The notes beneath the pieces were generated by a model. That model was not told where the DNA came from and did no database searches. It saw only the letters and a list, made by a program, of their open reading frames with translations. DNA of 64,000 bases from Thermincola carboxydiphila (lineage in GTDB: Bacteria > Bacillota > Thermincolia > Thermincolales > UBA2595). How positions within the stretch are numbered: the first letter of the stretch is position 1; each line of letters opens with the position of its first letter. The position numbers and the translations under genes are program-made. The stretch is from the NCBI GenBank assembly GCA_016841725.1, contig JAENYP010000001.1, forward strand, positions 248,001 to 312,000. Reading direction: 5' to 3'. Below are positions 14,111 to 48,495 of this stretch, piece by piece.

Positions 14111-14149
14111 CCCTTATATTAGTTGGCTCCTGAAGTTCTATCAGAACTC

Positions 14150-15527: not shown

Positions 15528-15608
15528 GGTCGGTAGTCCAGACGTGCTTTAAAGCAACTATAACCTCACTTTCTTTAAATTCGCCTGAAACCTTATTTTT
15601 CCTTCAAA

Positions 15609-15637
15609 ATTATACTATTACCTGGCGTAGTTTACAA
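15609..15637 (-). promoter_or_regulatory. Promoter of resB-ccsB
   Basis: TTGTAA and TATAAT stand 17 bp apart on the minus strand, about 80 nt upstream of the resB start. This is a near-consensus sigma-A promoter. Confidence 0.65.
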
Positions 15638-15746
15638 CCCTTCCTGTCAATATTATCACTATTATGTGGCAAAAGTATGGCAATAACGGTACAAACTGTT
15701 TGAATTTTATTATGCCCGGCATAAATACAATTATTGAATAACTTCA

Positions 15747-18779: not shown

Positions 18780-18828
18780 ATATCATCAACTCCTGAACCG
18801 ATTAATATAACCAAATAAAGGATGGATT

Positions 18829-29030: not shown

Positions 29031-29062
29031 GAAAAAAAACAGCCGCAACATAAGTTGCGACT
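29031..29062 (-). terminator. Leader terminator with flanking alternative stem
   Basis: AGTCGCAAC and GTTGCGGCT pair with one wobble around a TTAT loop, followed by GTTTTTTTT on the minus strand. An outer inverted repeat, CTACTAAG with CTTAGTAG (29061-29068 and 29021-29028), encloses it. Lying ~95 nt before the 15-haem gene start and after a promoter, it could be an attenuator. Confidence 0.7.
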
Positions 29063-29154
29063 ACTAAGTACATTATAAAAAATACTGACGGGGTATAAAT
29101 CACTTTTAACAAAATCACTACCAGCCTTTCGGAAACAAATGGCTAACTCCTATA

Positions 29155-29247: not shown

Positions 29248-30504
29248 CTACTTCTTATGGCAGGACTGGCATACTCCATAATTATCCAGTCTGAGCATTT
29301 TTTGACTCGATATCGTTTCACCTGTGTCAGGCAGATATACATTAAATGTTTTGTAGGTACCATGTGCAAAGTGGCACGTCTCGCAAACCACGGCATTTCT
29401 CTTGTCAGTGGTGCCTGCCCCGGGGTCTGCCTGCAGCGGCAGATAATCCCCTGCAGCAGGCCAGAGGCCTTTAGCTTCAACGGAATAAACGGTTGTACCA
29501 ACTGTCGTCGGGTGTTTGTATCCACTGTTATAAACACCGCCGGGATAATGAGCTGAACCTTCGTCATAGTCAAGGTGACAGGCGGCGCAGAATTCGGTAT
29601 TTCCGGAAATAAAATAGACTTCCTCACCAACTGTCACATCCCTGACAACTGCATATGCCCTGAAATCGACTTCCTGGGGATTCCATTCCTCATCTGCAGG
29701 ATAAATTGTTTTCTTCAGCAGGCGGTAATTATCGTTTTTCCCCCCATGACCCTTATGGCACGAAACACACGTAAAGGTCAGGAATCTGCCCGGGTCGCTT
29801 CCATATACAGTAGTCATAACATCAGTAGTATCATCCACATTATGTTTGGAGGTGATGCCGGTTACCCCGCTTCCTATGGGACCGGCCAGGGAATCAACCC
29901 ATCCCGTTTCCGGACCCATGTAAACCCTGCCGGTTTCCACATCATATTTGCTCTGAGAACTGCTGTTTCCATGACACAACAGACAGAGTTCGTAATATGT
30001 TGCCTGTTTTAACAGGTATGCGCCCAGGGCGGCATGGGTGGTGTGACACGCCGCACACATACTTGTGCCGGGGCCAAAGTTACCGTGAGCATAATCGTTC
30101 TGGTATCTTTCAGAATTGGTACTGTTGTTAAAATCTACCGGGAAAGCACGTGCAATTGTAACTCTGGTCCCATTACTGACCTTGAAAAAATAATTCGCGT
30201 ATTTGGTTACCGCAAGCTTAAAGACCGCATTCGCTGTTCCGGCATTATCAGGCGTACCGGTCTGCCAATCCAGGTCATCACCACTGGACAGCACATCATC
30301 TGCCCAGGCAAAATCATAAGGGCCTCCATTAGCATCAGAATCATTCCAGTAGACATAAGTATCCACACCGGTCCCGTTATTGAAATACCTGATATATACA
30401 TATGGCCCATCCTCAGCAGCGCCGGTTCCGGCAAAAAATGCCATGACCCCTAGCGCTATTATGGAAATTAATAAATATTTAACCTTAACTTTCATGCCAG
30501 ACAT
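29248..30504 (-). CDS. OmcS-like hexahaem c-type cytochrome (copy 2)
   Basis: The protein has 418 residues with a signal peptide (LLISIIALGVMAFFAGTGAAE), a ~115-residue haem-free beta domain, then six CXXCH motifs: CAACHTTH, CLLCH, CVSCHKGHG, CAACH followed by AHYPGGVYNSGYKHP, CETCHFAHGT and a terminal CQSCHKK. From memory, OmcS of Geobacter sulfurreducens (nanowire cytochrome) has the same order: CEGCHTMH, CLNCH, CSSCHDPHG, CANCH with AYP and RHP, CLSCHRAH, CNKCH. At least seven histidines outside the motifs are available as distal ligands. It is last in a TPR-NHL-cytochrome operon (19 nt after NHL). Filament formation is a hypothesis. Confidence 0.9.
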   Translation of the reverse strand: MSGMKVKVKYLLISIIALGVMAFFAGTGAAEDGPYVYIRYFNNGTGVDTYVYWNDSDANGGPYDFAWADDVLSSGDDLDWQTGTPDNAGTANAVFKLAVTKYANYFFKVSNGTRVTIARAFPVDFNNSTNSERYQNDYAHGNFGPGTSMCAACHTTHAALGAYLLKQATYYELCLLCHGNSSSQSKYDVETGRVYMGPETGWVDSLAGPIGSGVTGITSKHNVDDTTDVMTTVYGSDPGRFLTFTCVSCHKGHGGKNDNYRLLKKTIYPADEEWNPQEVDFRAYAVVRDVTVGEEVYFISGNTEFCAACHLDYDEGSAHYPGGVYNSGYKHPTTVGTTVYSVEAKGLWPAAGDYLPLQADPGAGTTDKRNAVVCETCHFAHGTYKTFNVYLPDTGETISSQKMLRLDNYGVCQSCHKK

Positions 30505-30523
30505 CCCCCGTAGCAGTTCCCAT

Positions 30524-31588
30524 TCAGTACCCCCACACCTGAACGCGGTTATTGCCCCAGTCAGCTATATAAATACTCCCTGAATCATCAACATAAACTC
30601 CCGTAGGATAAACAAATTCTCCATCACCTGAGCCCTGCCTGCCAAAACTGAATAAATATCCGCCATTTTTGTCAAATACCCTGACCATGCTGCTTATGGT
30701 ATCAACCACATACAGGCGACCATTTCCATCAACAGCAACTCCCCTAACCATACTGAAACGGTTTCCGGGCGCAATTGAGTCAATGACCCGCTGTGGTTCT
30801 CTTACCGTACCTATTGCCGCCTCTTTTTCCAACTCTCCTCCAGGCTCTCCTTCAAGTTCATAAACCTTCACAACTGATGCTCCGGAATCACTGACATAGA
30901 GTTTAGTTCTTTCCACATCAACTGCTATTCCGTGCGGGTACGAAATATTCCTGAATTTTTCCAAAACCCTGGCATCCCTGTCGAACTTTACTACCTGGTT
31001 TCCCGACAGATCCCCAACATAGATTTGTCCCCGGCTGTCAACACAGACCGGACCGGGTTTTTGGACCCCGGCTTTATTGCCCGGTCCCAGAAAAGTTCTC
31101 ACGAATTTCCCCTCAGGACTATACTCCTGTACTCTGTAATTGCCTGTCTCGGCAATTAGGATGCTGCCATCCGGTAAAATGCCAATCCCATAAGGGAACT
31201 TTAAATCTCCGGGTAAATTACCGACACTCCCAATAACTCCTTTGGGCTTTCCGTTTGGGCCGACTATTTCAACTGTATGATTTCTGTTATTGCTTACATA
31301 GATACTTGTCCTGTCCACAGCAACTGCTATGGGATGAGAAAACCTGTTACGGCCCTCGTAAATACTGAACCGAAACTCTGGCGGTTTTTTGTTTATAACC
31401 GGCAAAACACTTTCAGCGGGTTTTTGTCCGAGGTAATACAAACACCCAAAAACTGCGGAAATTATAATGGAAGTGAATACAATTAACAGCAGCAGGGTTT
31501 TCAGGGTTATGGTTTTCCGTCTCTTAAGGCGGTTCTTGCCACAGTCCTCTGATTTACCGGCAAAATCTCCGTCAATCTGCTTCTTCAC
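30524..31588 (-). CDS. Membrane-anchored NHL-repeat beta-propeller protein (copy 2)
   Basis: The protein has 354 residues: a basic N-terminus, a membrane helix (LLLLIVFTSIIISAVFGCLYY) and six NHL repeats (IAVAVDRTSIYVSNNRNHTVE, IGILPDGSILIAETGNY, VDSRGQIYVGDLSGNQ, AVDVERTKLYVSDSG, AVDGNGRLYVVDT, VYVDDSGSIYIADWGNNR). Its start overlaps the TPR gene stop by 4 nt and its stop is 19 nt from the hexahaem gene. The same arrangement at 42.2-43.2 kb makes this a conserved module. The propeller faces outward and could bind the apo- or holocytochrome during assembly. Confidence 0.92.
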   Translation of the reverse strand: MKKQIDGDFAGKSEDCGKNRLKRRKTITLKTLLLLIVFTSIIISAVFGCLYYLGQKPAESVLPVINKKPPEFRFSIYEGRNRFSHPIAVAVDRTSIYVSNNRNHTVEIVGPNGKPKGVIGSVGNLPGDLKFPYGIGILPDGSILIAETGNYRVQEYSPEGKFVRTFLGPGNKAGVQKPGPVCVDSRGQIYVGDLSGNQVVKFDRDARVLEKFRNISYPHGIAVDVERTKLYVSDSGASVVKVYELEGEPGGELEKEAAIGTVREPQRVIDSIAPGNRFSMVRGVAVDGNGRLYVVDTISSMVRVFDKNGGYLFSFGRQGSGDGEFVYPTGVYVDDSGSIYIADWGNNRVQVWGY

Positions 31589-32274
31589 CGGCGCACCACC
31601 TTCTTCAATGCCAACTCAGCATCTGTATAGTCTTTATTGATGGCCAATGCCCTCTCATATGCATTAATGGCATTTTGCCTGTCATTCAGCTTTTCATAAG
31701 CCTGCCCCAGGTAATAATAGGCAACGGGATTTGCCGGATCCCTCTCAACAGCCTTCCTGAGAGTAGACGCGGCAAGACTGTGGTCACCGGTTTCCAGATA
31801 GTTCCGCCCCTGATATAACAGGGCAATTCTGGTTTCAAGCCCCTGATTTTTCTCCAGATATCTGGTCAGAAATTCTATGGATTCCCGGTAATTTTTCTGT
31901 TCTGAAAGAATCAGCCCCAGGTACAAAACTGCAGTATCATTTTCCGGTTCATCTGCCAACACCTGACGCAGAACAGTTTCGCCCTTATCCGCCTGCCCGT
32001 CCAGGTAATAGGTCATTGCCAGTTCAGCCCGAATACTGTTGGGTTCTGGGTTTTCGGCAAGCTGGCCCTTTAATGATTCGATGCGGTACTCAAAAAGGCT
32101 TTGGTCTTTAACCCAAAACCACCGCTCCCCAATGTAAAATCCGAAAAGCACCATAATTACAACAAGGATGGCAACCAGAACAAGGGCTTTACTGCGGCTT
32201 ATCCTTTTGTTAAAATTTATTTTAAAATTGATTCTGTGATTTAATAATGAATTAAGGCGGTGTAGCAATCTCAC
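31585..32274 (-). CDS. Membrane-anchored TPR protein (copy 2)
   Basis: The protein has 229 residues with one membrane helix (ALVLVAILVVIMVLFGFYI) and about four to five TPR units after residue 75 (e.g. AELAMTYYLDGQADKGETV, AYYYLGQAYEKLNDRQNAI). TPRs are protein-docking scaffolds. A shared pattern near the first outer helix (FW, then an RI/RF segment, then NP) and the same neighbours mark it as a paralogue of the TPR protein at 43.2-43.8 kb. It is first in the TPR-NHL-hexahaem operon. Confidence 0.9.
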   Translation of the reverse strand: MRLLHRLNSLLNHRINFKINFNKRISRSKALVLVAILVVIMVLFGFYIGERWFWVKDQSLFEYRIESLKGQLAENPEPNSIRAELAMTYYLDGQADKGETVLRQVLADEPENDTAVLYLGLILSEQKNYRESIEFLTRYLEKNQGLETRIALLYQGRNYLETGDHSLAASTLRKAVERDPANPVAYYYLGQAYEKLNDRQNAINAYERALAINKDYTDAELALKKVVRR

Positions 32275-32445
32275 ATCATAATCCCTTCACAGCAATAATT
32301 TTCAAGAGCAATTATTTATATTTTCAACATTTATTCGGTAATTTCCTGCTGCAGTTAATAATTCTATGCTAATATTTTGCAATTTTCTTAACTTTCTCAA
32401 ATATTACCGAGGTTATATTTTGCTGCCCTAAAAAGCTGCAGATAG

Positions 32446-35265
32446 TTATTTAACCTCTTCTTTACTCTTCATCATCCCGTCGGCAACTGTGGAGCATGGC
32501 GCTCCATGGGCCGATGCCAGCATCTCGGCAGTTGCAGCCGAACACCCCTGGCCGGGATGTCCATCTCCGGCAGCTGGGTGACCATGACCGATGGCTGGGT
32601 GGCCGATACCTGTTGTAGGATATGCCCCGGCTGAGTCATGGCCCCGCCGGTGGCCTGCCAGTATCCAGTCCTTAACACTGGTCGGCTCAAGGCCAAAGCC
32701 CAGAAGATTACCCTGTGCCCTACCGATTATCTCAAACCCGCCATCTGTCTCATAGCCAATATTGTCGGTTTGCACAGCCAGTACCGTAGCCCGGTTAGTC
32801 AGATCATAATGCCGGATCAGCCCTATTTCCCCTTGGGGCAGCCGCTGCCCGGTCCTGGGGCCGACCACAACAGTCCTGGTCCAGGGAGGGGCAACCTTGT
32901 AACGTTCCTTTTCCACAAAACCATTGAAAAAGTTCCTGATAGTATTATCAAAATAGTTTGTCCCACTTTCACTCATCCCCAGGGTATTTATACACATTTT
33001 GGGGGATACCCCCAGGTACTCCTGACACCTGGCATAGAAATCATCCCGGGAACAATCGCCAAAAGTGGCCTGGTAACCTCCGCCGTCACAAATCCTGCTT
33101 CCTTCCGGGAGCCTAAAGCTAATTCCTTTTTCAATACAGTTGTTAAAGAAATGCACAAATCCGGAGGTCGCTCCAACTATAGCAACAGGTGTGCCATTTT
33201 TCTCAGCCTCACGTAAGGCCTCAATCAAGGCTTCGGTCTCAAAACCGTTAGGGGTAATAAAATACATACTGTCTTCGGTCCCAAACTCATTTTTCATTTG
33301 CTCCAATCCGAAGGCCATGGCCATTGCCGGCACCACCTTTGGGGAGGGAACCAGGAGCAGAATCCGCATCCGGTCAGTATCAGGAAACAAAAGGGATTTG
33401 GTAATCATCTTATTAGCCTGCAAAATCATATCCAGGCTGCCTTTATCGCGGTAAATTTTCCCCCTCATACCCGGATCGGTGGTCCCACTGGTCAATAAAG
33501 CCAGTTCGGCATCCTTTAAGGGAAATGAGGTAATTACATGCTCTTTGAAGGCAGAGGTGGGAATCGCAGGTATCTCAGACCAATGTCCCACAGTATCCGG
33601 AGTACGCTCCTGTTTCTTACAATACTCCCGGTAAACGGAACCGGCCATAAACTGAATCCTGAATTCCCTTAGCGCTAAGAAGTTAAATTTTTCTTCACCA
33701 TGGTAATTCAGGCCCTCTTCAATAAATTCAACTATATCGGCATCAAGCTCCCCTGATAGTCTGGCAGCTTCTTGCTCATTAACCATCTGGCCGTCCTCCT
33801 TCTTACTCATCCCAATTATGGAATCTATAATATTGCCCATTTCAGCAGGCAGTGATATCGTGTTTTTCCCGAAATTACTGACAAAAAAGTGAGTATGCAT
33901 GATTCGAACCGATTTCAACATATAGTCCTTCTTAAAACCGTCTTCCATCAATACCAACTGCTGCACCTTATTAAGGTAAAACACCCGGAAGCAGTTAATC
34001 AATGCTGACCATAAGCGTGGTATTTCCATTTGTGCTGGCTTTATCACCGGATAAACAAAATGGTATTTGGAGTAATCGTTTTCAACTATGTATTCCCTTA
34101 CCTGGTCATACATTTTGGTATAAGGCCACGGGGTCAGCAGCAAAAAATGTGCCAGGTCAGGTGCATAGTCCAGCGCTGTCTGCAGGGTTTTTTCAATATC
34201 CTCTTCAGTATCATCGGGATTCCCTATAATAAAAGAACATTCGGTAATAATATCATGCCGGTTTAAAAGGTCAATGGCCCTGCGGGATATATCAACCGTC
34301 AGCCCTTTTCCGAAATCATCCAGGGTTTTCTGATGTACTGTTTCCACACCCACATATATATGGACAATCCCTGCCTTTCTATATTTGTGCAGGATGTCAC
34401 TGTCCCTGATAACCGCATCTGCCCTTGTCTCCAGACTGACATGGATATCAAGCCCTTTAGAAATAAGCAGGTCCAGTACCTTTTCCCAAACCTCCCGCTC
34501 ACAGGTAGCAAATTCATCAGCCATCATAAACATACCGATGCCATAATCCCTGTGCAGGCTCTCCAGTTCTGCGACAAAGTTCTCAGGTGTCCTGGTGCGG
34601 TAGGAACCCTTCCAGAACAGGTGCTGGGAGCAAAAACTGCAGCTATGCGGGCATCCCCGTGACAACCCCACCAGAGCCAGCCGTCTTCCGGTTACATTAT
34701 ATTTATACAAGTCCCAGTCCAGCAAGTCCCATGCCGGGATAAGGCTGTCCAGATCAGGAGTAAATTCCCGCTCGGGGGTCATCCTGACAGAACCATTGGC
34801 AAACCAGGCCAGTCCTCTGACATGGTTGGGTGTAACCCCATGATTAATGGCCTGTGCCAGTTCCACAACGGTCTGCTCTCCCTCACCCCTTACTATATAA
34901 TCGATGACTCCGGGCATTTCCTTTAGTAATTCGCGGCTGCAGAAGGTGGCGTGAATACCGCCGAGACAGGTTACCATACCCGGGTTAATTTCCTTTGCGG
35001 CCTTCAGAACCTCAACAGCGGCATTAATGCTTGATGTAAAACTTCCGATCATAACCAGATCCGGGTTCTCCTCTGAGATAACCTTTCTGACTTCATTGAT
35101 ATCATGGTCCAGGGACATGGCATCATATATAGTAACCTGGAAACCGCCTGCCCTCAGGTGACCTGCCAGGTATACAAGGCTTAGCGGCGGCCATTTTCCG
35201 GTAACTTCAATTATGCCGGTATGGTATGGAGGTGTTACCAGAAGGATATTCAGTGACATAGACAA
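32446..35265 (-). CDS. B12-binding radical SAM / LuxE-like acyl-protein synthetase fusion
   Basis: The protein has 939 residues. Residues 1-130 form a B12-binding-like domain (LLVTPPYHTGIIEVTGKWPP; MIGSFTSSINAAVEVLKAA). Residues ~195-420 are a radical SAM core with CPHSCSFC and an EFATCERE region. From about 510 to 860 it resembles LuxE/acyl-protein synthetase, an adenylating enzyme, with LLTSGTTDPGMRGKIYRD, VGATSGFVHFF and GMSESGTNYFD. A final ~60-residue tail is rich in GHP/GHG. Radical SAM enzymes with B12 domains catalyse methyl transfer or ring and thioether chemistry, and LuxE-type enzymes activate carboxylates. The fusion is unusual to me and no product can be named. It lies between the 35-haem gene and a TPR operon and starts at ATG 35265. 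Confidence 0.85.
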   Translation of the reverse strand: MSMSLNILLVTPPYHTGIIEVTGKWPPLSLVYLAGHLRAGGFQVTIYDAMSLDHDINEVRKVISEENPDLVMIGSFTSSINAAVEVLKAAKEINPGMVTCLGGIHATFCSRELLKEMPGVIDYIVRGEGEQTVVELAQAINHGVTPNHVRGLAWFANGSVRMTPEREFTPDLDSLIPAWDLLDWDLYKYNVTGRRLALVGLSRGCPHSCSFCSQHLFWKGSYRTRTPENFVAELESLHRDYGIGMFMMADEFATCEREVWEKVLDLLISKGLDIHVSLETRADAVIRDSDILHKYRKAGIVHIYVGVETVHQKTLDDFGKGLTVDISRRAIDLLNRHDIITECSFIIGNPDDTEEDIEKTLQTALDYAPDLAHFLLLTPWPYTKMYDQVREYIVENDYSKYHFVYPVIKPAQMEIPRLWSALINCFRVFYLNKVQQLVLMEDGFKKDYMLKSVRIMHTHFFVSNFGKNTISLPAEMGNIIDSIIGMSKKEDGQMVNEQEAARLSGELDADIVEFIEEGLNYHGEEKFNFLALREFRIQFMAGSVYREYCKKQERTPDTVGHWSEIPAIPTSAFKEHVITSFPLKDAELALLTSGTTDPGMRGKIYRDKGSLDMILQANKMITKSLLFPDTDRMRILLLVPSPKVVPAMAMAFGLEQMKNEFGTEDSMYFITPNGFETEALIEALREAEKNGTPVAIVGATSGFVHFFNNCIEKGISFRLPEGSRICDGGGYQATFGDCSRDDFYARCQEYLGVSPKMCINTLGMSESGTNYFDNTIRNFFNGFVEKERYKVAPPWTRTVVVGPRTGQRLPQGEIGLIRHYDLTNRATVLAVQTDNIGYETDGGFEIIGRAQGNLLGFGLEPTSVKDWILAGHRRGHDSAGAYPTTGIGHPAIGHGHPAAGDGHPGQGCSAATAEMLASAHGAPCSTVADGMMKSKEEVK

Positions 35266-35283
35266 AAGCTCCTTTTATTTAAA

Positions 35284-35305
35284 GCTGTGCCTTAGAGGGC
35301 ACAGC
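35284..35305 (-). other. Hairpin directly before the radical SAM-LuxE ribosome site
   Basis: GCTGTGCC and GGCACAGC form a perfect eight-pair stem, with AAAAGGAGC just downstream on the minus strand. The same stem sequence recurs at 35449-35487. Confidence 0.6.
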
Positions 35306-35448
35306 CGATAATTCAAATTAAAACTTTTATTCAGTGGAGAAATCTTACCGAGTTGTATATTTCGACATCTCTTTCCATTATCCTTCTATATCAGGCAGCC
35401 AGTTATTACCGGTAATATTAGTATTACTTTCCTTAGGAGTTTTTGCCT

Positions 35449-35487
35449 GTTCAAAGCTGTGCCTGTGACCGGCACAGCTTTATGAAC
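35449..35487 (-). terminator. Long hairpin after the 35-haem cytochrome gene
   Basis: GTTCAAAGCTGTGCC pairs with GGCACAGCTT plus TGAAC around a seven-base loop (about 15 pairs, one small bulge), 28 nt after the 35-haem stop. It lacks a T-run. It may terminate weakly or protect the transcript. Confidence 0.55.
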
Positions 35488-35515
35488 TTATTGGTCTTCC
35501 TTGCAAAATACCAGT

Positions 35516-38500
35516 TTATCTTCCGTTTCGCTTCTGGGAACCAGACCCTTCGCCGCCCCGCTGGTGGGAAACAGATTGGTGGCAGCTTGTGCAGCTATAT
35601 TCTTTTACAGTTGTGTTGGAACTGAGATTCTGCTCGATGACCGCTGTGGTAATGGCTATAGCAGGATTGGCTGTATGGCAGACGACACAGTTTCCGTTAT
35701 GTGCCAAAACAACATCATTAGCGCCATTGCCGTGACAATTGATACAACCTTCACTATTAATAACCTGGTGCAGTTTCAGGTGTGTTTTGGCATCAGACCC
35801 GTTGTGGCATAAGGTACAGCTGTAAGTATTACTCTCACCAACCATGGGATTAATAATCTCCTGAATACCTGTATTACCGTGACAGGTATTGCAGCCACCC
35901 TCATGGACAGCAGATCCCTGACCGGTGAAAACATATTCTGTACCGGCTGTAATGTTAAAGGTATGACACACGCTGCAATCAAGGTTCTCCTGCTCGATAT
36001 CCTGGACAGCCTTGTGTTCAGGCAGGTGAGCAGCATCCCGGGTTACCGGGTAGCCATCTGCCGTATCACCGTTGTGGCAGTCACTGCAATAAATGGAAGT
36101 TGATCCGTTTACAAGCATATCAAGCTCTCCGTCCCTGGCAATGACTTCACCATAAAACGGCTCAGTATGGCATGCGGCGCAGTCTTTATCATACGCGTTA
36201 TGAAGTTCAGCCAATTCCGTATCGCCACTGGCAGAATCAGCAGCGTGGCAGGCAGCACAGTTTACTTCCTCAGGTTCCTCGTAAACAACTACGTTATGGG
36301 TGTGGTCTCCTTCCCCATGACAGCCCTGGCAGCTTACATCACCCGAGGCAATTGCCCCTTTTACCGAATCCCTGGCTGTTGTCCCGTGACAGGAGTCACA
36401 GGTCACTGTAGAACTGCTGCGTTTCTTATGCACGGCAAGGAGATTCTGCCCTGCAGCTGAATCATCTGTCTGGTGACAGTTAAGACAGAAAGCGGTATCC
36501 GGATAAAGCGCGGTATCAGCGTCATGGAAAGGTTTATGAGTTTCCGCCATATCCATTTCAGCATTGACTGAGGCGTCATGACAGCCTTCACAGGATACAT
36601 CAAGACCTACCACTGCAGGTTTAAATCGCTCATCAGTATGGCAGGCACCACATCCAACAGTGACAGCTGAATGGATGTCTATTAAGGAGTCGGCATGACA
36701 GGTACTGCAGTCAGGGCTGTATTCAGGCATAAATACCGGGAACAAATCCACCTCATGCTCCGGAGAGTATTGGGTTTCCGGGTGTTTTGCAGGTGCGGAA
36801 ACATCATTATGACATGCTTCACAGGCTGTCAAACCGGTGCTGATTTGATCTCCTACCGGTGCATCCGGGTCGTGGCACACACCACAGGTATATTCCTGGT
36901 TTAAAGTGATATTTGGCTCCACATGAACCCCTATGAGGTTATTTAAAGCATAGGTCTCATTGGTGGATGTATGGCACCAGGAACAGTCAACCGGCTTATC
37001 TGCAGCAATAAGGTCTGTCATTGACAAATCTGTGGTGCTTTGATGCATTGTGGCAATATCCCCATGACATGCGGAACATGAATAACCTGGGACAGGGACA
37101 TTGGCCCTAATGGGGTCAATATCAATCCGGTATTGACCATCAACCACTCCATGGCAGGTTTCACAGGACAATGGATGGTAGCCTACAATCTGTTCTCCAT
37201 CAGCCTGGTGAACAGGATAATATGGTGATGTGCCTTTTTCATGGTCTTCCAGGTGACAAGCCGAACAGTCGTAACCGTTACCGTCTTTTACATCTTCCTT
37301 CAGATCAGCAATAAGACTCTTATAGGCCTCGTTGTGGCAGTCTGTACATTTCAGGTGGAAGGCGGTTGTATCTTCATATTGAACCCCTTCAAAAGCGGCC
37401 TGGTGGCCTGATGATAAGTCAGTATGGCATTCTGTACAGGAATATCTGTCACTGCGGCCATCGGCAATGATTGTGTTAATCACTGCGGCAAATGCAGTGC
37501 CCGGAGTATGACATGATGCACAACTCGTATGTACATCCATAACAGCCATCTGCTGACCACTGTAATCCGCGCTGTGAACCGGAGCCTTGGGATTGGAACC
37601 GGTGGTGCCGTCACCGTTGTGGCAGTCAAGGCATGAATAGTTTTTAACTGAACTGCCCGCAAGTTCAGCAATGTCAGGAAGAATTTCCTGCCTCTGATGA
37701 CAGGTATTGCAGGAATCGTGCGGTGCCCCGTCAACCCGCAGATTGTTGCTTTCTGTGGCAATGTGGAAAAGTGGATGCTCTTCGGGTACTGGAATAACTC
37801 CGGCATTAAAGTGACACTTGTCACAGGAGCGGTTGGCTGCAATGTTGTCGGCAGTATCGATTACATTAAGTACGGCCGGATTGGTGGATTTGTGACAGGC
37901 CATACAGTCTTTATCCTGATTTGCGTGTTCAACATCAAGAGTACTGTTATGACATCCTGAACAATCTACCGGATATATACCGGTCAGTTGTAAGGTAAAT
38001 GATAATTCGTCAGGTAAAGTGGTGTTGTGAAATGACGTCAACTGTGCTGCGGTATGTCCTGTCTTGTCTGTAATATGGCAGCCGAGGCAAAGGTTGGTAG
38101 TATCTGTCGGACCCGAAGGCACAATCCCGGAATCATAATAGCCATGACATTTCGAGGCAGAACAGGTTAGTTCTTCCGGCCCCCAACTGATTCCCGTAGC
38201 TACAGTATAAGTTTTATAATCTGTGATTTGGGTACTGCCGTGCTGTTGGTGAGCCACAGGCTTATGACAGGCTTCACAGGTAGCAGCCCTGTGGCAATTA
38301 CCGCAATAACCGGTATTTGCCGGGGTATTCTTACCATTGTGGTAATTGTGAATGTCAGGAGGGCCTACCAGAAGGCTGGCAGTGCTTCTGAAATAGCCGG
38401 CATTGGGAACATATACTGCCGTCCATTTGGGGTACGGGTGGTCTTCATTAACCAAAAACCCCTCATGACAAACTTTACAGGTATCAGCTGGGGCAGGTGA

Positions 38501-38638
38501 TGCCAAAGTGAAATCACTTACCACTGTACCGTGACACTTGGTACAGTCTGTCAGGTCCGTCTCCGCACTGGCACTGTTCATAAATGAAAAACAGATGACA
38601 ACAATTAAGGTGAAAATTAGTAAAATTAATTTTTTCAG
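35516..38638 (-). CDS. Giant 35-haem c-type cytochrome (probable CTG start)
   Basis: From the first ATG (38581) the protein lacks a full signal peptide. Upstream in frame is KKLILLIFTLIVVICFSFMN, a perfect one, starting at CTG 38638 (8 nt after AAGGAGG) or ATT 38641 (5 nt after). The CTG aligns with the ATG of the paralogue at 40842 (MKKK). The mature part (about 1015 residues) carries 34 CXXCH and one CX4CH (CSASKCH) motif and almost no haem-free domain, roughly one haem per 29 residues. The first ~220 residues closely match the 16-haem protein (shared AVYVPNAGYF and NGKNTPAN). Size and density suit a long-range electron wire or store across the cell wall. Its redox partner is unknown. Confidence 0.93.
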   Translation of the reverse strand: MKKLILLIFTLIVVICFSFMNSASAETDLTDCTKCHGTVVSDFTLASPAPADTCKVCHEGFLVNEDHPYPKWTAVYVPNAGYFRSTASLLVGPPDIHNYHNGKNTPANTGYCGNCHRAATCEACHKPVAHQQHGSTQITDYKTYTVATGISWGPEELTCSASKCHGYYDSGIVPSGPTDTTNLCLGCHITDKTGHTAAQLTSFHNTTLPDELSFTLQLTGIYPVDCSGCHNSTLDVEHANQDKDCMACHKSTNPAVLNVIDTADNIAANRSCDKCHFNAGVIPVPEEHPLFHIATESNNLRVDGAPHDSCNTCHQRQEILPDIAELAGSSVKNYSCLDCHNGDGTTGSNPKAPVHSADYSGQQMAVMDVHTSCASCHTPGTAFAAVINTIIADGRSDRYSCTECHTDLSSGHQAAFEGVQYEDTTAFHLKCTDCHNEAYKSLIADLKEDVKDGNGYDCSACHLEDHEKGTSPYYPVHQADGEQIVGYHPLSCETCHGVVDGQYRIDIDPIRANVPVPGYSCSACHGDIATMHQSTTDLSMTDLIAADKPVDCSWCHTSTNETYALNNLIGVHVEPNITLNQEYTCGVCHDPDAPVGDQISTGLTACEACHNDVSAPAKHPETQYSPEHEVDLFPVFMPEYSPDCSTCHADSLIDIHSAVTVGCGACHTDERFKPAVVGLDVSCEGCHDASVNAEMDMAETHKPFHDADTALYPDTAFCLNCHQTDDSAAGQNLLAVHKKRSSSTVTCDSCHGTTARDSVKGAIASGDVSCQGCHGEGDHTHNVVVYEEPEEVNCAACHAADSASGDTELAELHNAYDKDCAACHTEPFYGEVIARDGELDMLVNGSTSIYCSDCHNGDTADGYPVTRDAAHLPEHKAVQDIEQENLDCSVCHTFNITAGTEYVFTGQGSAVHEGGCNTCHGNTGIQEIINPMVGESNTYSCTLCHNGSDAKTHLKLHQVINSEGCINCHGNGANDVVLAHNGNCVVCHTANPAIAITTAVIEQNLSSNTTVKEYSCTSCHQSVSHQRGGEGSGSQKRNGR

Positions 38639-38641
38639 AAT

Positions 38642-38991
38642 CGTTACCTCCTTTCTAGCAATTTTTGATTCAACTAATACCCGTTTCTATTCACCTCCTC
38701 TCACTTGTTACAAGTGAAAACAATCATTTGATTTATCAATTAAAGACAACAAAAATTGCTCACCTTTACTGGCAGCAAATTTAATTAGCCTCTATATTAT
38801 AATCGTGAGCCAAACAAAACAGGTTTAACCTTTGTCCATTTATTGGCTCCTATTTTTGGTTTTTTTTCCATCTTATTATACCACTAGATGTCATCAAATT
38901 TCAATAGTATCAAATCAGGAACAAAATTTAAGCCGGTACTTCAATAGCGTACCGACTTAAGATCAATTTGAGACAAATCCGTATATTTTAT
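38642..38991. other. Gene-free region between the 35- and 16-haem genes
   Basis: These 350 bases hold the 16-haem terminator (38921-38960), a palindrome TCACTTGTTACAAGTGA at 38701-38717 that could be an operator, a GAGGAGGTG sequence at about 38690-38700 that resembles an unused ribosome site, and the true AAGGAGG at 38647-38653. A TATAAT lies near 38800, without a matching -35. Confidence 0.55.
38921..38960 (-). terminator. Intrinsic terminator of the 16-haem gene
   Basis: TTAAGTCGGTAC and GTACCGGCTTAA pair with one mismatch on the minus strand, followed by ATTTTGTT. Confidence 0.75.
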
Positions 38992-40842
38992 TTACTTGTA
39001 CAAAATCTCTAACCTATAGCCGTCGGGTAAAACTGGAGAGGTCAGATGGTTTTCACCACCATAAAAGAACACAGTGGCATTTCTCCGGTCCTTTTTAAAC
39101 TGGGCCTTAAAGCTATCTTCGTTCAGTTCCAATGCAGGCAGTGTCCATCCGTTTGCAGCCATCTGTTTCTGATAATAATTCCAAACCGTTTCCCTGCTCA
39201 CTATTAACCTGTTGGAAATAAGCAGTTTACCACCCTCGTATCCGGTCGGCATCCATTCCTCGCCTGACCATATATCGGCAGGTTGCGGCAATGACCACTG
39301 ATACCCGGCGTATAGTGGAATGTCTGCAGGTATCTTCTGTACCAGATTAAAGTTATGGGCTACATCATGGCAGGCAATGCAATCGGTATTGCCCGTCACT
39401 ACTGCTGTCTTCACCGTTTCATTTGGGCTCTGATGACAGGTCACACAGTTTAAGGGATTATCGGCATTTCCCGCCTGAGTAATACTGTTGTTAAGGTGTT
39501 CCTCAGTTAAAACTGGTTTGTGACACACCTTTGTACAGTTGCTGTCAATTTCTCCTGTATGTCCGGCATCCAATGAAGCCCCAAAATGGCATTCGGTACA
39601 GGAATAGTCACTGCCATTATTAACCTGCAAAGCTATTGTCTCGACCTTGGCAGCGGCATTTGTCCCCGGAGTATGACAGGTCGCGCAGCCTGGGTGAACG
39701 TCCAGCAACCCCATATACTCTCCGTCAAGCCTGGCAGTGTGTTCCGGAGCAAGACCAGTTTCCTGATTGTGACAGGTAAAACAGTCGTACTTTCTCTCAG
39801 TAATAGGTAACCTTGCAAGGTCTTCTATCTTTGTCAGCAAATTAGTTCTGGCGTGACAGGTATTGCAATCCGAGTGGGCCCCGGCGGATATATCCAGATT
39901 GTCACTTAAGACAGCCTTATGATACGTCAGGTGTTCTGCGGGCCGTTCTGGGAGTACAGCTACATTAAAATGGCACACTCTACAGCTCCGGTTCGCATTT
40001 TTCATTGTTATATCAGTCAGCCCGCTATTTACAGTTTTAATCACCTGAACGGCATCCTGAACAGGCAGTTTGGCAGATGCCATGTGGCAGTAGCCGCATT
40101 CTGTATCTTCAGGCTGACTTAATTCCTGAGCAACCAGTTTATGTTCTACCGCCAAGTTTCCGGTATGGCAGCCTTCACATGAAATAACATTCTCAGTGAT
40201 CCCTAGCCTTAAGGTTTGGTTAGCCGAGTTATGAAAAGGTTCCAGGCGTTCCGGAGTATGACCAGTTTTATCAGTACTGTGGCAGTTTATACAAAGCTGC
40301 TCCCCATCAGTCCTGTTAATTACGACACCGGTGCTATAAAAACCATGACAGGTTTCAGTAGAACACGAAATCGGCTTCAAGCTGTACCCAGTGCCAGTGG
40401 ACACCGTATATTTCTTCAAACTATCCACAGGTATGCTTCCATGTGTTTTATGGGTTACAGCCTTATGGCAGCTTTCGCAGTCTGCAGCAACATGGCAGTT
40501 ACGGCACCATCCTGAGTTGGCAGGAGTGTTTTTTCCATTATGGTAGCTATGAATTTTCGGAACTCCTGTGGCAATACTTCCTGAATTTTTAAAATATCCG
40601 GCATTGGGAACATAAACTGCTGTCCAACTGGGGTAAGGATGATCTTCATTAATCAAAAAACCTTCATGACAAGCTTTACAGGTATCTGCAGGAGCAGGAG
40701 GCGCTACAGCAAAGTCGCTGATAACTGTGCCATGACACTTTTGGCAATCCTCTAACCCTGCAAATGCCTGCTGATTCCCGGTAAACAACATGATAACCAA
40801 TAAAACCAGGAAGGGAATGGCATATGTAATTTTCTTTTTCAT
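38992..40842 (-). CDS. 16-haem c-type cytochrome with non-standard haem motifs and C-terminal domain
   Basis: The protein has 616 residues with a signal peptide (YAIPFLVLLVIMLFTGNQQAFA). It has 14 CXXCH motifs, one CX4CH (CSTETCH) and one CX3CH (CTKVCH). The CX4CH position is conserved with the 35-haem paralogue downstream, so it probably binds haem; the CX3CH is unusual. The last ~115 residues contain no cysteines and look like a separate alpha/beta domain (VWNYYQKQMAANGWTLP; RNATVFFYGG). The two genes are a tandem duplication of a haem block, expanded in the 35-haem protein. They have their own terminators, so each may be transcribed separately. Confidence 0.92.
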   Translation of the reverse strand: MKKKITYAIPFLVLLVIMLFTGNQQAFAGLEDCQKCHGTVISDFAVAPPAPADTCKACHEGFLINEDHPYPSWTAVYVPNAGYFKNSGSIATGVPKIHSYHNGKNTPANSGWCRNCHVAADCESCHKAVTHKTHGSIPVDSLKKYTVSTGTGYSLKPISCSTETCHGFYSTGVVINRTDGEQLCINCHSTDKTGHTPERLEPFHNSANQTLRLGITENVISCEGCHTGNLAVEHKLVAQELSQPEDTECGYCHMASAKLPVQDAVQVIKTVNSGLTDITMKNANRSCRVCHFNVAVLPERPAEHLTYHKAVLSDNLDISAGAHSDCNTCHARTNLLTKIEDLARLPITERKYDCFTCHNQETGLAPEHTARLDGEYMGLLDVHPGCATCHTPGTNAAAKVETIALQVNNGSDYSCTECHFGASLDAGHTGEIDSNCTKVCHKPVLTEEHLNNSITQAGNADNPLNCVTCHQSPNETVKTAVVTGNTDCIACHDVAHNFNLVQKIPADIPLYAGYQWSLPQPADIWSGEEWMPTGYEGGKLLISNRLIVSRETVWNYYQKQMAANGWTLPALELNEDSFKAQFKKDRRNATVFFYGGENHLTSPVLPDGYRLEILYK

Positions 40843-41029
40843 CCAAATTCCCCCTTCAATTAAGTGACAAGGCTCAACACATTACACGTCAACATGTGTA
40901 AATATTTCTATGTTAATTGTATTAGCAACAAATTTTTTCTAAGTTTATAGTAATCTTTAACGATAAACTAGTAATCCCGTAAGTATTATAATCGGTTATT
41001 GAAGTATTACTTTTCGTAGTCTTTTAAAG

Positions 41030-41062
41030 GTGAAAACAGTGCCCGGCGCTGCCACCGGGCAC
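41030..41062 (-). terminator. Intrinsic terminator after the hexahaem gene (copy 1)
   Basis: GTGCCCGG and CCGGGCAC pair perfectly; TGTTTTCACCTTT follows on the minus strand. It closes the TPR-NHL-hexahaem operon of 43.8-41.1 kb. Confidence 0.85.
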
Positions 41063-41091
41063 CATTTCCGATATCTACAAATTTAACTTAA

Positions 41092-42192
41092 TTAACTCTG
41101 ATCACTTGGTTTGTTGAACTCTGCTGCCCCATGGCAGTCATAGCATACATCCCTGTTAGTTTCCCTAAGGAGGACACTGGAGTCAGACTCGTCATCTGTT
41201 GAGCCATCACTTAACTCGTAACTTGCTGATGCACGGGTCCATACGGTATCACTGGTGGATGAACCTGTACCGTGAGCCCTGTGGCAGGTCAGACAGACCA
41301 GCTTGTCATTAACTGAAAGAGCCACCTTCTCCAGAGACTGGTGAGTCACATCCGTCGGGTTGTCAAGAGTGAAGTTCATCCGGTGCATGTACTTGTCGGC
41401 GACACTTGTGCCGGCATCATCAACAGCAACCTGACCGGCATCAGCATCCATCTGGTTGAACAGGTCATGACAGCCGGCACACCAGATACCGACATTGTCC
41501 CCATAACCGGTTACAACCTGAGTCTTAAATCCGGTCGTATCAGATGCTCCGATACTGCCAAAGGTCCAGTCCCGATGGTCATAAACTGATTCACCAACAC
41601 CACCGTTGTCGGTAGCCTCCTGGACCAGTTTTGGCAGGTCAAGCCTCAGCAGACGCGGCATAATGGTACTGGTTGCGTAATTGCCGCCCTTGTGGGGGTC
41701 ATGGCAGGAACCGCAGCGGAAGTCGCCGGTTAAGGTAGTGGTACCACCAGGGATGATTGAAGTTTCATCCCAAACATCTCCGTCATAAGTCTCCACCCCG
41801 TGGACAGATGTACTGTAGACATAATCCGTCAGGGTATAGGCATGCGAAGCATAATTATGGTTGTCGAAATCAAAGGTCTTGTAGAAACCACCGGCAACTG
41901 AAGGCATAAAACCGCCTGCTGCTGGTGTTGCAATCATCCCGTTTTTAGCATCATAAGGACTCTTGGAAAGGCTGTTATGGCAGTAGTAGCAAAAATCCGT
42001 CTGGGTTGGTCCCGAAATCAACAGGGCCGCAGCCTGACCGGCGTGGGTGACATGGCACTTGGCGCAACCCAGTGAGTTGTCGGCAAAGTCACCATGATAA
42101 TATGGTTCAACCGCCATAGCAGTTGAGGCAACAGCAGCAACCATTATCACCGCCATTACCAAAGTTAAAGCTAACTTTTTCATCATTTTCAC
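41092..42192 (-). CDS. OmcS-like hexahaem c-type cytochrome (copy 1)
   Basis: The protein has 366 residues with a clear signal peptide (LALTLVMAVIMVAAVASTAMA) and mature start VEPYYHGDF. Six CXXCH motifs follow: CAKCHVTH, CYYCH, CGSCHDPHKGG, CAGCH, CLTCHRAHGTG, CYDCH. Order, first-haem CHxxH, third-haem CHDPH and fifth-haem CHRAH all parallel OmcS as I remember it. Compared with copy 2 it lacks the extra N-terminal beta domain. Ten histidines lie outside the motifs, enough for six bis-His haems. It is 13 nt after the NHL gene in a TPR-NHL-cytochrome operon and ends at a strong terminator. Likely secreted; polymerisation is hypothesised. Confidence 0.92.
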   Translation of the reverse strand: MKMMKKLALTLVMAVIMVAAVASTAMAVEPYYHGDFADNSLGCAKCHVTHAGQAAALLISGPTQTDFCYYCHNSLSKSPYDAKNGMIATPAAGGFMPSVAGGFYKTFDFDNHNYASHAYTLTDYVYSTSVHGVETYDGDVWDETSIIPGGTTTLTGDFRCGSCHDPHKGGNYATSTIMPRLLRLDLPKLVQEATDNGGVGESVYDHRDWTFGSIGASDTTGFKTQVVTGYGDNVGIWCAGCHDLFNQMDADAGQVAVDDAGTSVADKYMHRMNFTLDNPTDVTHQSLEKVALSVNDKLVCLTCHRAHGTGSSTSDTVWTRASASYELSDGSTDDESDSSVLLRETNRDVCYDCHGAAEFNKPSDQS

Positions 42193-42205
42193 CTCCTTTC
42201 AATGT

Positions 42206-43180
42206 TTATCTCGGTTTATATACCAATACACGTTTAAAAGCGTGTTCCAGTACATACATTCTGCCGGCATCATCAAGAGTGACATCTGTCGGCAGATAAA
42301 TTTCCTGCTCCTGGTCCTCAATAGTTTCACTCCTGGTTATCCGGGTAACTGTTTCGCCTTCTGTGTTCATGATACTGACCCGGTGCGCCATGCCCTCAAC
42401 TGTATAGAGCCTGCCGGCTTTATCAAATGCCAGGCCCCGGGGGACAAACAGAGCGCCTTCACCGGTTTCTTCATTTTTTTTGGGCAGTGTTCTGACCAAT
42501 TCACCTTCAGGATCATAGATATTTATCCTGTTATTCATGGAGTCGGCAACATAAATCTGGCCATCCCTGACTGTTAAATCGTACGGATAATACAGTTTTC
42601 CCGGGTCACTGCCATACCCGCCAAAGCTCTTCACCTTTTTCTTGGTAGCCAGTTCATATTTCTCAACGGTCTGGTCCTTATTATTTAAAAGGTACAAAAA
42701 TCCATTGTCAACTGCTACATCCGCAACCAGGATCCCATCAAGTTCCAGAGTATCCAGGATCTGACCTTCGGGGTTCAGCATAAAGACCTTGCCTGAGATG
42801 GGGTCGGCAACATACAGCCTGGTCCCATCCCAGAACATCCCCGAGGGTGACTGGATCTCCTTGCTGGCAATATCCCTTACATGGTCCCCTGTTTTATCAT
42901 AAACAGCTATTCTACCATTATCGGTGTCGGAAACGTAAATCAGGTTATTGAACACAAGGACTTCGTATGGATTGTTAAAATTCTTGGCGCCCCCATAAAC
43001 TGCAAATACATATTCATACTCAGGAATATCAACCGGCACAGTGGCACGAAATACATCCACAGGGCTGGTTTTTCTTAAATAAAAATACCCAAAGATGCAG
43101 ACCAGCACCAGTGTGGTTCCCAGAATTAGATTCAGCAAGATGGCTTTGGATATTTTTTTTCTGCCTGTTTGCATGTTCAT
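42206..43180 (-). CDS. Membrane-anchored NHL-repeat beta-propeller protein (copy 1)
   Basis: The protein has 324 residues with a membrane helix (ILLNLILGTTLVLVCIFGYFY) and six NHL-type blades (EVLVFNNLIYVSDTDNGRI, MFWDGTRLYVADPISGK, LTVRDGQIYVADSMNNR, LAFDKAGRLYTVEG, VTLDDAGRMYVLEH). It overlaps the TPR gene by 4 nt (ATGA) and precedes the hexahaem gene by 13 nt. Gene order and overlap are the same as at 32.3-29.2 kb. A docking or assembly role for the adjacent cytochrome is inferred. Confidence 0.92.
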   Translation of the reverse strand: MNMQTGRKKISKAILLNLILGTTLVLVCIFGYFYLRKTSPVDVFRATVPVDIPEYEYVFAVYGGAKNFNNPYEVLVFNNLIYVSDTDNGRIAVYDKTGDHVRDIASKEIQSPSGMFWDGTRLYVADPISGKVFMLNPEGQILDTLELDGILVADVAVDNGFLYLLNNKDQTVEKYELATKKKVKSFGGYGSDPGKLYYPYDLTVRDGQIYVADSMNNRINIYDPEGELVRTLPKKNEETGEGALFVPRGLAFDKAGRLYTVEGMAHRVSIMNTEGETVTRITRSETIEDQEQEIYLPTDVTLDDAGRMYVLEHAFKRVLVYKPR

Positions 43181-43815
43181 TTTGATTTTAATCCTTCCAA
43201 TAGTGTTTTTGCTTCTTCATAATTGGGAACAAAACTGAGCGCCCTGTTAAGGTCCTCACTGGCTTTTTCATTATTCTTCATCGCTATATAAGTCTTGGCT
43301 CGTTCCACCAATATATCGGCCGCTCCGGGACTTATGAGCAGCGCATTGTTAAACTTCTGCACAGCTTCTTCGTACTGTTTGTCATTACGGAGCAGTATAC
43401 CGTAATGTACATTTGCCTGAATAAAATACGGGGAGGTTTTCAGAACCTTGGCATACATTTCCTTTGCTGATTCTATGTCTCCGACTTGTTCTTTATAACT
43501 GGCGTAATTGAATAATACCGCATTATCTTTAGGATATTGTTTTACCAAATCCTGATAGATTTTTTCCGGAGACTTTTTATCACCTTTCTCTGCAAGCGAC
43601 AAAGCATAGGCTATCGCAGCGTTTCTTGATTTCGGGTTAGCTCGGTAAGCTTTTTCTATATCGTTAAAGCGGACTTCAGCAAATGACCTGGAATCAACCG
43701 GCTTCCAGAAAATTGCGTTACCCAGAAAAATTCCTACTGCACTTACAATTACGATTACACCAACTAAAACCAGGACGGCCGTTCTTAAGGATATTTCGGA
43801 ATTGTTCTGCTCCAT
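43177..43815 (-). CDS. Membrane-anchored TPR protein (copy 1)
   Basis: The protein has 212 residues with a membrane helix (AVLVLVGVIVIVSAVGIFLG) and about four to five TPRs (AIAYALSLAEKGDKKSPEKIY, LFNYASYKEQVGDIESAKEMY, VHYGILLRNDKQYEEAVQKF). It is a paralogue of the TPR protein at 31.6-32.3 kb and first in its operon. An FW pair just after the membrane segment is common to both. It starts at ATG 43815 with a GGAGGA site upstream. Confidence 0.9.
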   Translation of the reverse strand: MEQNNSEISLRTAVLVLVGVIVIVSAVGIFLGNAIFWKPVDSRSFAEVRFNDIEKAYRANPKSRNAAIAYALSLAEKGDKKSPEKIYQDLVKQYPKDNAVLFNYASYKEQVGDIESAKEMYAKVLKTSPYFIQANVHYGILLRNDKQYEEAVQKFNNALLISPGAADILVERAKTYIAMKNNEKASEDLNRALSFVPNYEEAKTLLEGLKSK

Positions 43816-43881: not shown

Positions 43882-45411
43882 TTAAGTTCCTGCTTTCTTG
43901 TTGATAACCTGTGTTCTGTTTGTACTCCGGGGTGGTACTTCGGTATCTATCGTCTTTTCCTTGGGTTCGTTTTTGGGTTTAATAACCTTATGAACACTAT
44001 AGTACTTCTCATTATCCTTCCGCCTCTCCCCATGACACTTCAAACACAATTCATCATCAGAAAGCAACGTAAACTGCTCATTCTCTGTCCCATGCGGCCC
44101 ATGACAACTGGTGCAATGGAGTGTGCCTCCGCGCCAGGGATCGGTATATTTATCCCCAAAGGGGTGGTTAATCCTGGCCTTGCCTATTTCCGTATGGCAG
44201 CTGTTGCACATCGGTTCCTGCTTATCTATCAGCAGGGGTTTATACTCTGACCCGTGGGGTACGTGACAGTTGGTACAGGCTCCCAAGCCTCCTTTCCCTT
44301 CGGCTTTGGTAGCATGCTGGAGCTTTTCATAGGTACTCTCGAGTCCAAGATGGCACATATAGCATAAATCGTTCCCGGCTTTCCTTACCAGGTTGGGTCC
44401 TGGTCCCACATGCGGGTCATGACACCCGTCACAGTCCAGGAGACCGTTGCCCACCGGATGGTGGGAGGCTTTTGCAAATTCAGGCCTCATGGATGAGTGG
44501 CACAGGTAACACAGTTCTGTCCTGGTTTCGGGAAGCAGGGCCGGTTTTGCCGATGCGTGAGGAACATGACAGTTGGTACACTTTTCTTTCACCGGGGTAT
44601 GGATATACCCGTTTTTCGCACCTGCCTGTATTTTATCGTTTAAGCCATAATGGCAGCTTAAGCAGAGTCCGTTTCCCGCCACCAGTGTCAGTTTCTCACC
44701 CGGGGTCGCATGAGCGCCGTGGCAGTTAACACAGTCACCGGTCGCATAGGGCTTATGCTGGACAGGCAGCAGCAGTTCATTTTGCCTGTCATAGTGACAG
44801 GTAAAGCATAAGTCCTTACCAGGCAGCCTGGTCATACCCCTGTTTTTTGATGCATGGGGGACATGGCAGTCGGAACAGGCACCTATTTCGTAAGGTTTAT
44901 GTTTGACTGGGAAATCATAAACCAAATCCAGTTTATGGCAGGCTGTACATAAAGTAGTAGGTGATGTCCGCAACAAATACCGGTAATCGGATGCATGTGG
45001 GTCATGGCAATCTGTACAGTGTCCCAGCTGGTATGGCTTGTGCTGGTAAATATAGGTGGTTTCATCAAGCCTGTTAAAGTGACAAGTGGTACAAAGCTGG
45101 TCAATATCAACCACAAACTCGTGTTTCCCTGAACCCACATTATGCGGTGCATGGCAGTCTTTGCAGTACCACTTGACAAAGGGCGCGTGCTGAAACTGCT
45201 TGTTAAAGTCTCTGCTTTTATCTGAATGGCAGATGCCACAAACCTCTTTATCAGATTCTCTGTCAGCCAGTTTTGGCCCTGTATCGGCAGGAACTGTCTG
45301 GAAGGATTGTAAAAACTCGCTGATTTGTTGGCGAACGGCAGGCAGGGATATTAATATACCAACAACCATCACCAACAGCAAACCGAATACCAATATCCTG
45401 TTGCGTTCCAT
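43882..45411 (-). CDS. 17-haem membrane-anchored cytochrome (doubled-CXXCH repeats)
   Basis: The frame opens at 45450, but ATG 45411 (MERNRILVF) follows AAAGGAG and gives a compact N-terminal membrane anchor (ILVFGLLLVMVVGILISL). The protein then carries 17 CXXCH motifs in regular pairs (CTDCHDPHAS, CSDCHVPHAS, CTNCHVPHGS, CTSCHGPHG alternating with CxxCH), the doubled-CXXCH pattern of NrfB/MtrA-like decahaem families, ending in a Lys/Pro-rich tail. Anchored outside the membrane, it is a candidate first relay between the quinol-linked NapC-type cytochromes upstream and the wall-spanning cytochromes. A 500-nt gene-free region precedes it. Confidence 0.93.
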   Translation of the reverse strand: MERNRILVFGLLLVMVVGILISLPAVRQQISEFLQSFQTVPADTGPKLADRESDKEVCGICHSDKSRDFNKQFQHAPFVKWYCKDCHAPHNVGSGKHEFVVDIDQLCTTCHFNRLDETTYIYQHKPYQLGHCTDCHDPHASDYRYLLRTSPTTLCTACHKLDLVYDFPVKHKPYEIGACSDCHVPHASKNRGMTRLPGKDLCFTCHYDRQNELLLPVQHKPYATGDCVNCHGAHATPGEKLTLVAGNGLCLSCHYGLNDKIQAGAKNGYIHTPVKEKCTNCHVPHASAKPALLPETRTELCYLCHSSMRPEFAKASHHPVGNGLLDCDGCHDPHVGPGPNLVRKAGNDLCYMCHLGLESTYEKLQHATKAEGKGGLGACTNCHVPHGSEYKPLLIDKQEPMCNSCHTEIGKARINHPFGDKYTDPWRGGTLHCTSCHGPHGTENEQFTLLSDDELCLKCHGERRKDNEKYYSVHKVIKPKNEPKEKTIDTEVPPRSTNRTQVINKKAGT

Positions 45412-45450
45412 ACTGAACCGGCTCCTTTCGCCGTTCTTGGACCATGACAA

Positions 45451-48272: not shown

Positions 48273-48495
48273 CTTAAACCAGCCTCCCTCAACCGTTAGA
48301 TTTCTTGCACTACAAATCACATTCCATCCAAAAAAAATTAAGAATCTTATTAGAGCCAGCATTACTCCGGATTCTTGTCTGTGAACCTATTCTACGCAAA
48401 ATAACAAAACCCTTCTTTTGTTTGGAATTTTTTGATTAGTAGGTAAATTCATACAAAACAAATGTCTGGCCTTTTGTTGGCGATTTTTTCTTTTT

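Follow-up and report, generated by a model that had tools for sequence, protein, structure and literature searches.

Hexahaem cytochrome genes of the OmcS family and their TPR and NHL partners in Thermincola carboxydiphila

An electron conduit across a Gram-positive cell wall has already been proposed in Thermincola. The hexahaem protein CwcA (TherJR_1122/Tfer_0075), encoded five genes after the 10-haem protein ImdcA (TherJR_1117/Tfer_0070), was modelled on OmcS, to which it is ~18% identical, was insoluble on expression and was proposed in 2021 to polymerise or stack through the peptidoglycan (PMC7911101). In OmcS of Geobacter sulfurreducens (6EF8/6NEF), 11 of the 12 axial haem ligands come from the own subunit and one from its neighbour (PMC6584659). 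In extracellular electron transfer clusters of Dethiobacter alkaliphilus, proteins with NHL or tetratricopeptide (TPR) repeats adjoin multihaem genes and were suggested in 2023 to act in secretion, orientation or assembly (PMC10376724), and an actinobacterial OmcS homologue with six CxxCH motifs and 28% identity to OmcS was reported in 2020 from a Coriobacteriales genome (PMC7399161). In this work, we describe two modules, A and B, each made up of genes for a TPR protein, an NHL propeller and a hexahaem cytochrome (CytA and CytB), in a window of 64,000 nucleotides from Thermincola carboxydiphila (contig JAENYP010000001.1, positions 248,001 to 312,000), part of contig C25 in our numbering of the 3.88-Mb genome. 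The host is a heat-loving, iron-breathing type of bacterium, and the Gram-positive (Bacillota) identity given by the initial annotation holds at the level of the Thermincola lineage.

We propose, with a probability of about 0.5, that each locus is a cassette in which a hexahaem cytochrome of the OmcS family, together with two extracytoplasmic partners anchored in the membrane, would serve the stacking of subunits into a conduit through the wall. Part of this is known already, namely the idea of a Gram-positive nanowire for CytA/CwcA and the presence of NHL and TPR genes near such cytochromes. The loci had been called the best candidate for a new system, which was too strong, since an OmcS-type wall polymer was proposed in 2021 for CwcA, the counterpart of CytA by synteny. 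However, TPR and NHL genes go unmentioned in the CwcA paper, whose subject is one protein and not a multi-copy cassette (PMC7911101). Neither a fixed three-gene order nor the word "nanowire" is found in the Dethiobacter paper (PMC10376724), and the Coriobacteriales homologue was reported as a single gene, NHL being unmentioned (PMC7399161). The presence of NHL and TPR genes near Geobacter nanowire cytochromes, assumed in the initial annotation, was not confirmed from PMC10599522, where GSU2505 is called hypothetical and a response regulator is given for GSU2506. In the open-access literature searched, no description of the TPR-NHL-hexahaem cassette as a unit was found, and NHL, TPR, multiheme and extracellular electron transfer came together only in PMC10376724. 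The conserved, repeated cassette, the B subfamily with its immunoglobulin (Ig)-like domain, and the role of the TPR and NHL proteins as predicted dedicated partners thus appear to be undescribed.

Gene content of the two modules

All six genes were recovered as open reading frames (ORFs) at the positions and in the order first annotated, and Pfam detected TPR repeats, NHL repeats and paired-CxxCH multihaem domains in both modules. All module genes lie on the minus strand:

43177-43815, minus strand: TPR_A, 212 aa, predicted N-terminal membrane anchor then TPRs (Pfam TPR; anchor read from sequence)
42206-43180, minus strand: NHL_A, 324 aa, predicted N-terminal membrane anchor then NHL beta-propeller (Pfam NHL 8.4e-16)
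41092-42192, minus strand: CytA, 366 aa, hexahaem, OmcS family, very probable CwcA orthologue by synteny
31585-32274, minus strand: TPR_B, 229 aa, predicted N-terminal anchor then TPR (PF23914 8.6e-13)
30524-31588, minus strand: NHL_B, 354 aa, predicted N-terminal anchor then NHL propeller (Pfam NHL 3.6e-32)
29248-30504, minus strand: CytB, 418 aa, hexahaem, OmcS family, with an additional N-terminal domain
30130-30414, minus strand: predicted Ig/fibronectin type III (FN3)-like domain of CytB, residues 31-125 (AlphaFold2 and VIA-align); CytA is without it
29038-29065, minus strand: terminator-like hairpin 3' of CytB, 12 pairs and a T run (consensus scan only)

The TPR and NHL genes overlap by 4 nt in both modules (43177-43180; 31585-31588), and the cytochrome gene follows the NHL gene after 13 nt in module A and 19 nt in module B, again as annotated. 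TPR_A, TPR_B, NHL_A and NHL_B each have a single N-terminal hydrophobic stretch behind positively charged residues, suggesting that they are probably anchored in the membrane with the soluble part outside. CytA carries a plain signal peptide, its haem region beginning ~15 residues further on, and CytB has a ~95-residue additional domain ahead of haem 1. The two cytochromes are 28% identical. Their haem motifs follow one another as CAKCHVTH, CYYCH, CGSCHDPH, CAGCH, CLTCHRAH and CYDCH in CytA, and as CAACHTTH, CLLCH, CVSCHKGH, CAACH, CETCHFAH and CQSCHKK in CytB. CHxxH is confined to haems 1, 3 and 5 in both proteins, bearing out the OmcS order first read from the motifs.

Module A is preceded by genes for 10-, 12- and 17-haem proteins, and the whole order (10-haem, 12-haem, 17-haem, TPR, NHL, hexahaem) fits that of TherJR_1117-1122 and Tfer_0070-0075. 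Counted from the contig start of a relative (G009), the 10-haem gene is approximately ORF number 59 to 73, varying with the size cut-off, and the hexahaem gene stands five positions further on, so that the two places fit Tfer_0070 and Tfer_0075; CytA shares 58% identity with this equivalent G009 hexahaem protein. By gene order and by its identity to this likely counterpart, CytA is very probably orthologous to CwcA: both are hexahaem proteins, encoded five genes after a 10-haem membrane cytochrome. CytB differs from CwcA in belonging to a separate subfamily with a predicted N-terminal Ig/FN3-like domain.

Relationship of the hexahaem proteins to OmcS

Judged by sequence comparison, the similarity of the CytA/CytB family to OmcS is true homology reaching beyond the haem motifs. 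A profile of 30 family members searched against PDB sequences placed OmcS first (E=4.6e-21), in an alignment that runs from haem 1 through haem 5, and the second match (8e-7) spanned one haem pair only. OmcS also came first with a profile built from eight members of the CytA group (E=1.1e-10). As a control, the residues between the haem motifs of the OmcS stretch were shuffled 1000 times with motifs and spacing kept. The true score was 81.6 bits against 2.9 +/- 6.9 for the shuffled sequences (maximum 27.3), and none of the 1000 reached it. When the haem motifs were masked in OmcS, the profile score was lost, which does not reverse the shuffle result and indicates that haem motifs and intervening sequence are both needed. 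In the reverse search with OmcS (E<1e-3), all four matches were hexahaem genes of the family, against 0 of 222 other multihaem ORFs. Profile, shuffle and reciprocal searches therefore agree with the OmcS resemblance that the initial annotation had noted, and the profile similarity whose absence it had named as telling against its nanowire reading was present.

An alignment of 34 sequences from Bacillota, Chloroflexota and Actinomycetota contains exactly six invariant histidines outside CxxCH, H140, H157, H221, H253, H331 and H381 in CytB numbering, just enough for six bis-histidine haems. Five of them share columns with OmcS His16, 110, 147, 257 and 335, and H140 precedes the OmcS stretch used. 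The ligand supplied by the neighbouring subunit in OmcS is presumably His16. The conserved set thus makes an OmcS-like geometry possible as far as can be read from the alignment. CytA and CytB resemble OmcS in having six haems in matching order, with CHxxH at the first, third and fifth of them, and matching distal histidines, but they differ from it in their monoderm host and regular TPR-NHL partners.

Recurrence of the modules within and beyond the genome

Anchored TPR and NHL genes are regular partners of the OmcS-family hexahaem genes. In 84,980 species genomes that were scanned, 79 loci were found in Bacillota (including Carboxydocella, Desulfosporosinus, Dethiobacter and Paenibacillus), Chloroflexota and Actinomycetota, as well as one Nitrospirae metagenome-assembled genome. 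Among 83 hexahaem genes with visible context, taken from independently fetched genome loci, the position directly upstream was held by a TPR-NHL pair in 45, by an NHL gene in 12, by another cytochrome in 15 and by something else in 11, so that the TPR-NHL-hexahaem arrangement is far beyond chance. The synteny search that had been suggested for such triplets returned 62 distinct ones, from scanned loci and relatives together, in Bacillota, Chloroflexota and Actinomycetota. This recurrence suggests that the partner genes may help in making conducting cytochrome chains that cross the cell wall. The distribution of the family is patchy, not universal, since only 27 of 398 genomes sampled from the host's phylum had a match at E<=1e-15. 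On the Carboxydocella thermautotrophica chromosome (G059), the NHL matches listed belong to four ORFs, all upstream of family cytochromes. A scan of viral contigs found no relatives.

One relative (G003, locus L100, 2431-6918) encodes behind TPR-NHL a protein of 1495 aa that is closest to CytB (7e-143) and has six haem motifs only, that is, a hexahaem unit fused to ~1000 additional residues.

In the genome of T. carboxydiphila itself, 11 ORFs match NHL. Eight of these lie directly upstream of a multihaem gene, and a TPR gene precedes six of the eight. The six resulting TPR-NHL-led cassettes, five hexahaem and one heptahaem, are:

modules A and B
the cassette on C9 (L069)
the cassette on C29 (L071)
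the cassette on C25 near 451 kb (L074)
the cassette on C3 (L072), with seven haems

Describing the modules as duplicated was too narrow for a genome with six cassettes in which A and B are old paralogues. Each relative has one protein that clusters with CytA in the tree and another that clusters with CytB, indicating that the paralogues are older than the genera. A recent duplication of the two modules was rejected, as each has orthologues in other genera and their cytochromes share 28% identity. The C3 locus (8649-11216 of L072) contains two tandem seven-haem cytochromes that were unmatched in the family cytochrome searches, so the TPR-NHL pair serves another cytochrome type too. On C35 (~74-75 kb), NHL repeats occur within an open frame of 4195 residues.

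A possible wall conduit and its alternatives

The mechanism we infer, comprising localisation, polymerisation, inter-subunit ligation and TPR/NHL function, would begin with export of the cytochrome by Sec and attachment of its six haems by the System II proteins (ResB/CcsA) encoded nearby. The anchored TPR protein, in the manner of CcmI/NrfG-type helpers, and the NHL propeller would keep the subunit, in apo or holo form, on the outer side of the membrane and hand it on. End-to-end stacking of subunits would follow, the haem-1 CHxxH histidine (His50 of CytA and His157 of CytB; His16 in OmcS) coordinating a haem of the next subunit. The resulting haem-stacked conduit through the peptidoglycan would receive electrons from the NapC/NirT-type membrane cytochromes encoded upstream of module A. 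The neighbouring genes of the window are:

43882-45450, minus strand: 17-haem cytochrome, directly upstream of module A
45916-47136, minus strand: 12-haem cytochrome with NapC/NirT-type N-terminus (PF03264 4.2e-15)
47205-48362, minus strand: 10-haem cytochrome with NapC/NirT-type N-terminus (PF03264 5e-15), ImdcA-like quinol oxidase candidate; order as in TherJR_1117-1122
38992-40842, minus strand: 14-haem cytochrome downstream of CytA, conserved in relatives
14172-15527, minus strand: ResB, System II cytochrome c biogenesis (PF05140 4.2e-57)
13253-14110, minus strand: CcsA-type cytochrome c assembly protein (PF01578 4.4e-55)
21073-21927, minus strand: second CcsA-type protein (PF01578 3.9e-37)
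22414-23472: weak ResB-like partner of the second CcsA-type protein (PF05140 6.6e-5, below cut-off)

Several observations weigh against a stacked conduit with dedicated partners. CHxxH is frequent in multihaem proteins, and six distal histidines in one chain would equally suit a monomer. PDB searches with the TPR proteins returned generic TPRs only, the NHL proteins look like generic propellers, and the searches found no structure of any family member. AlphaFold2 models, built without haem, had a mean predicted local distance difference test score (pLDDT) of 59.8 for CytB and 45.2 for CytA, their haem regions being unreliable. Good prediction was limited to residues 31-125 of CytB (pLDDT mostly 75-96); in VIA-align they match an FNIII domain (Z 5.8, 81 aligned residues, root mean square deviation 3.0), so that by its model this region is an Ig/FN3-like domain. 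Such a domain sets CytB apart from OmcS as well as from CytA and, lying just before the haem-1 region that would form the interface, could block or modify stacking. OmcS was absent from the structural matches obtained with Foldseek and VIA-align for these low-confidence models, in which the Ig-like domain alone was matched; the haem part is too poorly predicted for this absence to count as evidence against an OmcS relation.

The partners may instead be general helpers of multihaem cytochromes, the TPR protein an NrfG/CcmI-like apocytochrome chaperone and the NHL protein a docking scaffold for any large cytochrome encoded behind it, an explanation whose chances we put somewhat short of even. 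CcmI- and NrfG-type TPR domains hold apocytochromes for haem attachment, and TPR_B matches the CcmH/CycH TPR family PF23914 above the cut-off (48.9 bits vs 42), whereas TPR_A, with 37.0 bits, falls below it. Second NHL genes precede 11-, 15- and 25-haem proteins, and NHL genes also stand beside ResB/CcsA genes. NHL is thus not hexahaem-specific, because it also precedes large cytochromes unlike OmcS. On the other hand, the six TPR-NHL pairs of the genome all stand ahead of hexa- or heptahaem genes. The TPR, NHL and cytochrome trees also correlate (r 0.67-0.75), but we set this aside as evidence of interaction, since linked inheritance alone gives an equal result. The most economical reading of the sequences is that the TPR protein would be a subunit-handling factor heading the cassette and that the NHL protein would dock or orient the cytochrome.

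It is rather unlikely, in our estimation, that the hexahaem proteins, while sharing ancestry with OmcS, act as single wall-bound electron relays, with all twelve axial ligands intramolecular and no polymer. The six conserved distal histidines per chain would suffice for this, and many members bear extra N-terminal domains or large fusions (806-1495 aa), as would fit a fixed surface relay. Nevertheless, OmcS, which has matching histidines and draws 11 of its 12 ligands from within the subunit, does polymerise (PMC6584659), and recombinant CwcA could not be kept soluble (PMC7911101).

Less probable still is that the TPR and NHL proteins form a permanent base of the conduit, anchoring the cytochrome chain to the membrane and helping it to meet the 10- and 12-haem NapC/NirT-type proteins. 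Each has one N-terminal hydrophobic segment and a predicted outward soluble domain, and TPR_A and NHL_A lie between the NapC/NirT-type genes and CytA in an order kept in relatives, but neither protein has a redox site. Finally, that the OmcS resemblance is only a shared CxxCH/CHxxH vocabulary, as the failure of single-sequence phmmer with CytA or CytB to find OmcS in PDB might suggest, is very improbable, being contradicted by the haem-preserving shuffles and exceeded by the profile and reciprocal searches.

Other features of the window deserve mention. At 13253-19797 (minus strand), an NHL gene (18829-19797) precedes genes for an 11-haem protein that has a Big_5 Ig-like domain, for ResB and for CcsA, possibly a related cassette in which a large cytochrome is accompanied by haem-attachment genes of its own. 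The 34-haem ORF at 35516-38640 (minus strand) is without a signal peptide when read from the ATG at 38581. In frame upstream of this ATG are a strong ribosome site, AAAGGAGGTAACG, and then ATT CTG AAA AAA and a signal-like stretch, so that ATT or CTG is the probable start codon; the L075 counterpart has 32 aa more. The gene immediately upstream of module B (32446-35265, minus strand) fuses a B12-binding radical SAM enzyme to a LuxE-like acyl-protein synthetase; its place is held in relatives L076 and L090 by proteins of 983 and 1034 aa.

The cassette proposed here bears on nanowire assembly and on the passage of electrons through the thick Gram-positive wall, and it names two candidate assembly factors. 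A wider generalisation, which we consider doubtful, is that TPR-NHL-hexahaem is a general nanowire-building cassette of monoderms, in which TPR and NHL proteins would load and polymerise the subunits and several plain or Ig-decorated conduits would be built per genome in Bacillota, Chloroflexota and Actinomycetota. The distribution suggests that OmcS-type conduits are widely distributed among monoderm phyla and are not mainly a Geobacter trait. If this holds, the CwcA proposal, made for a single protein, would extend to a multi-copy family that has two or more architectures.

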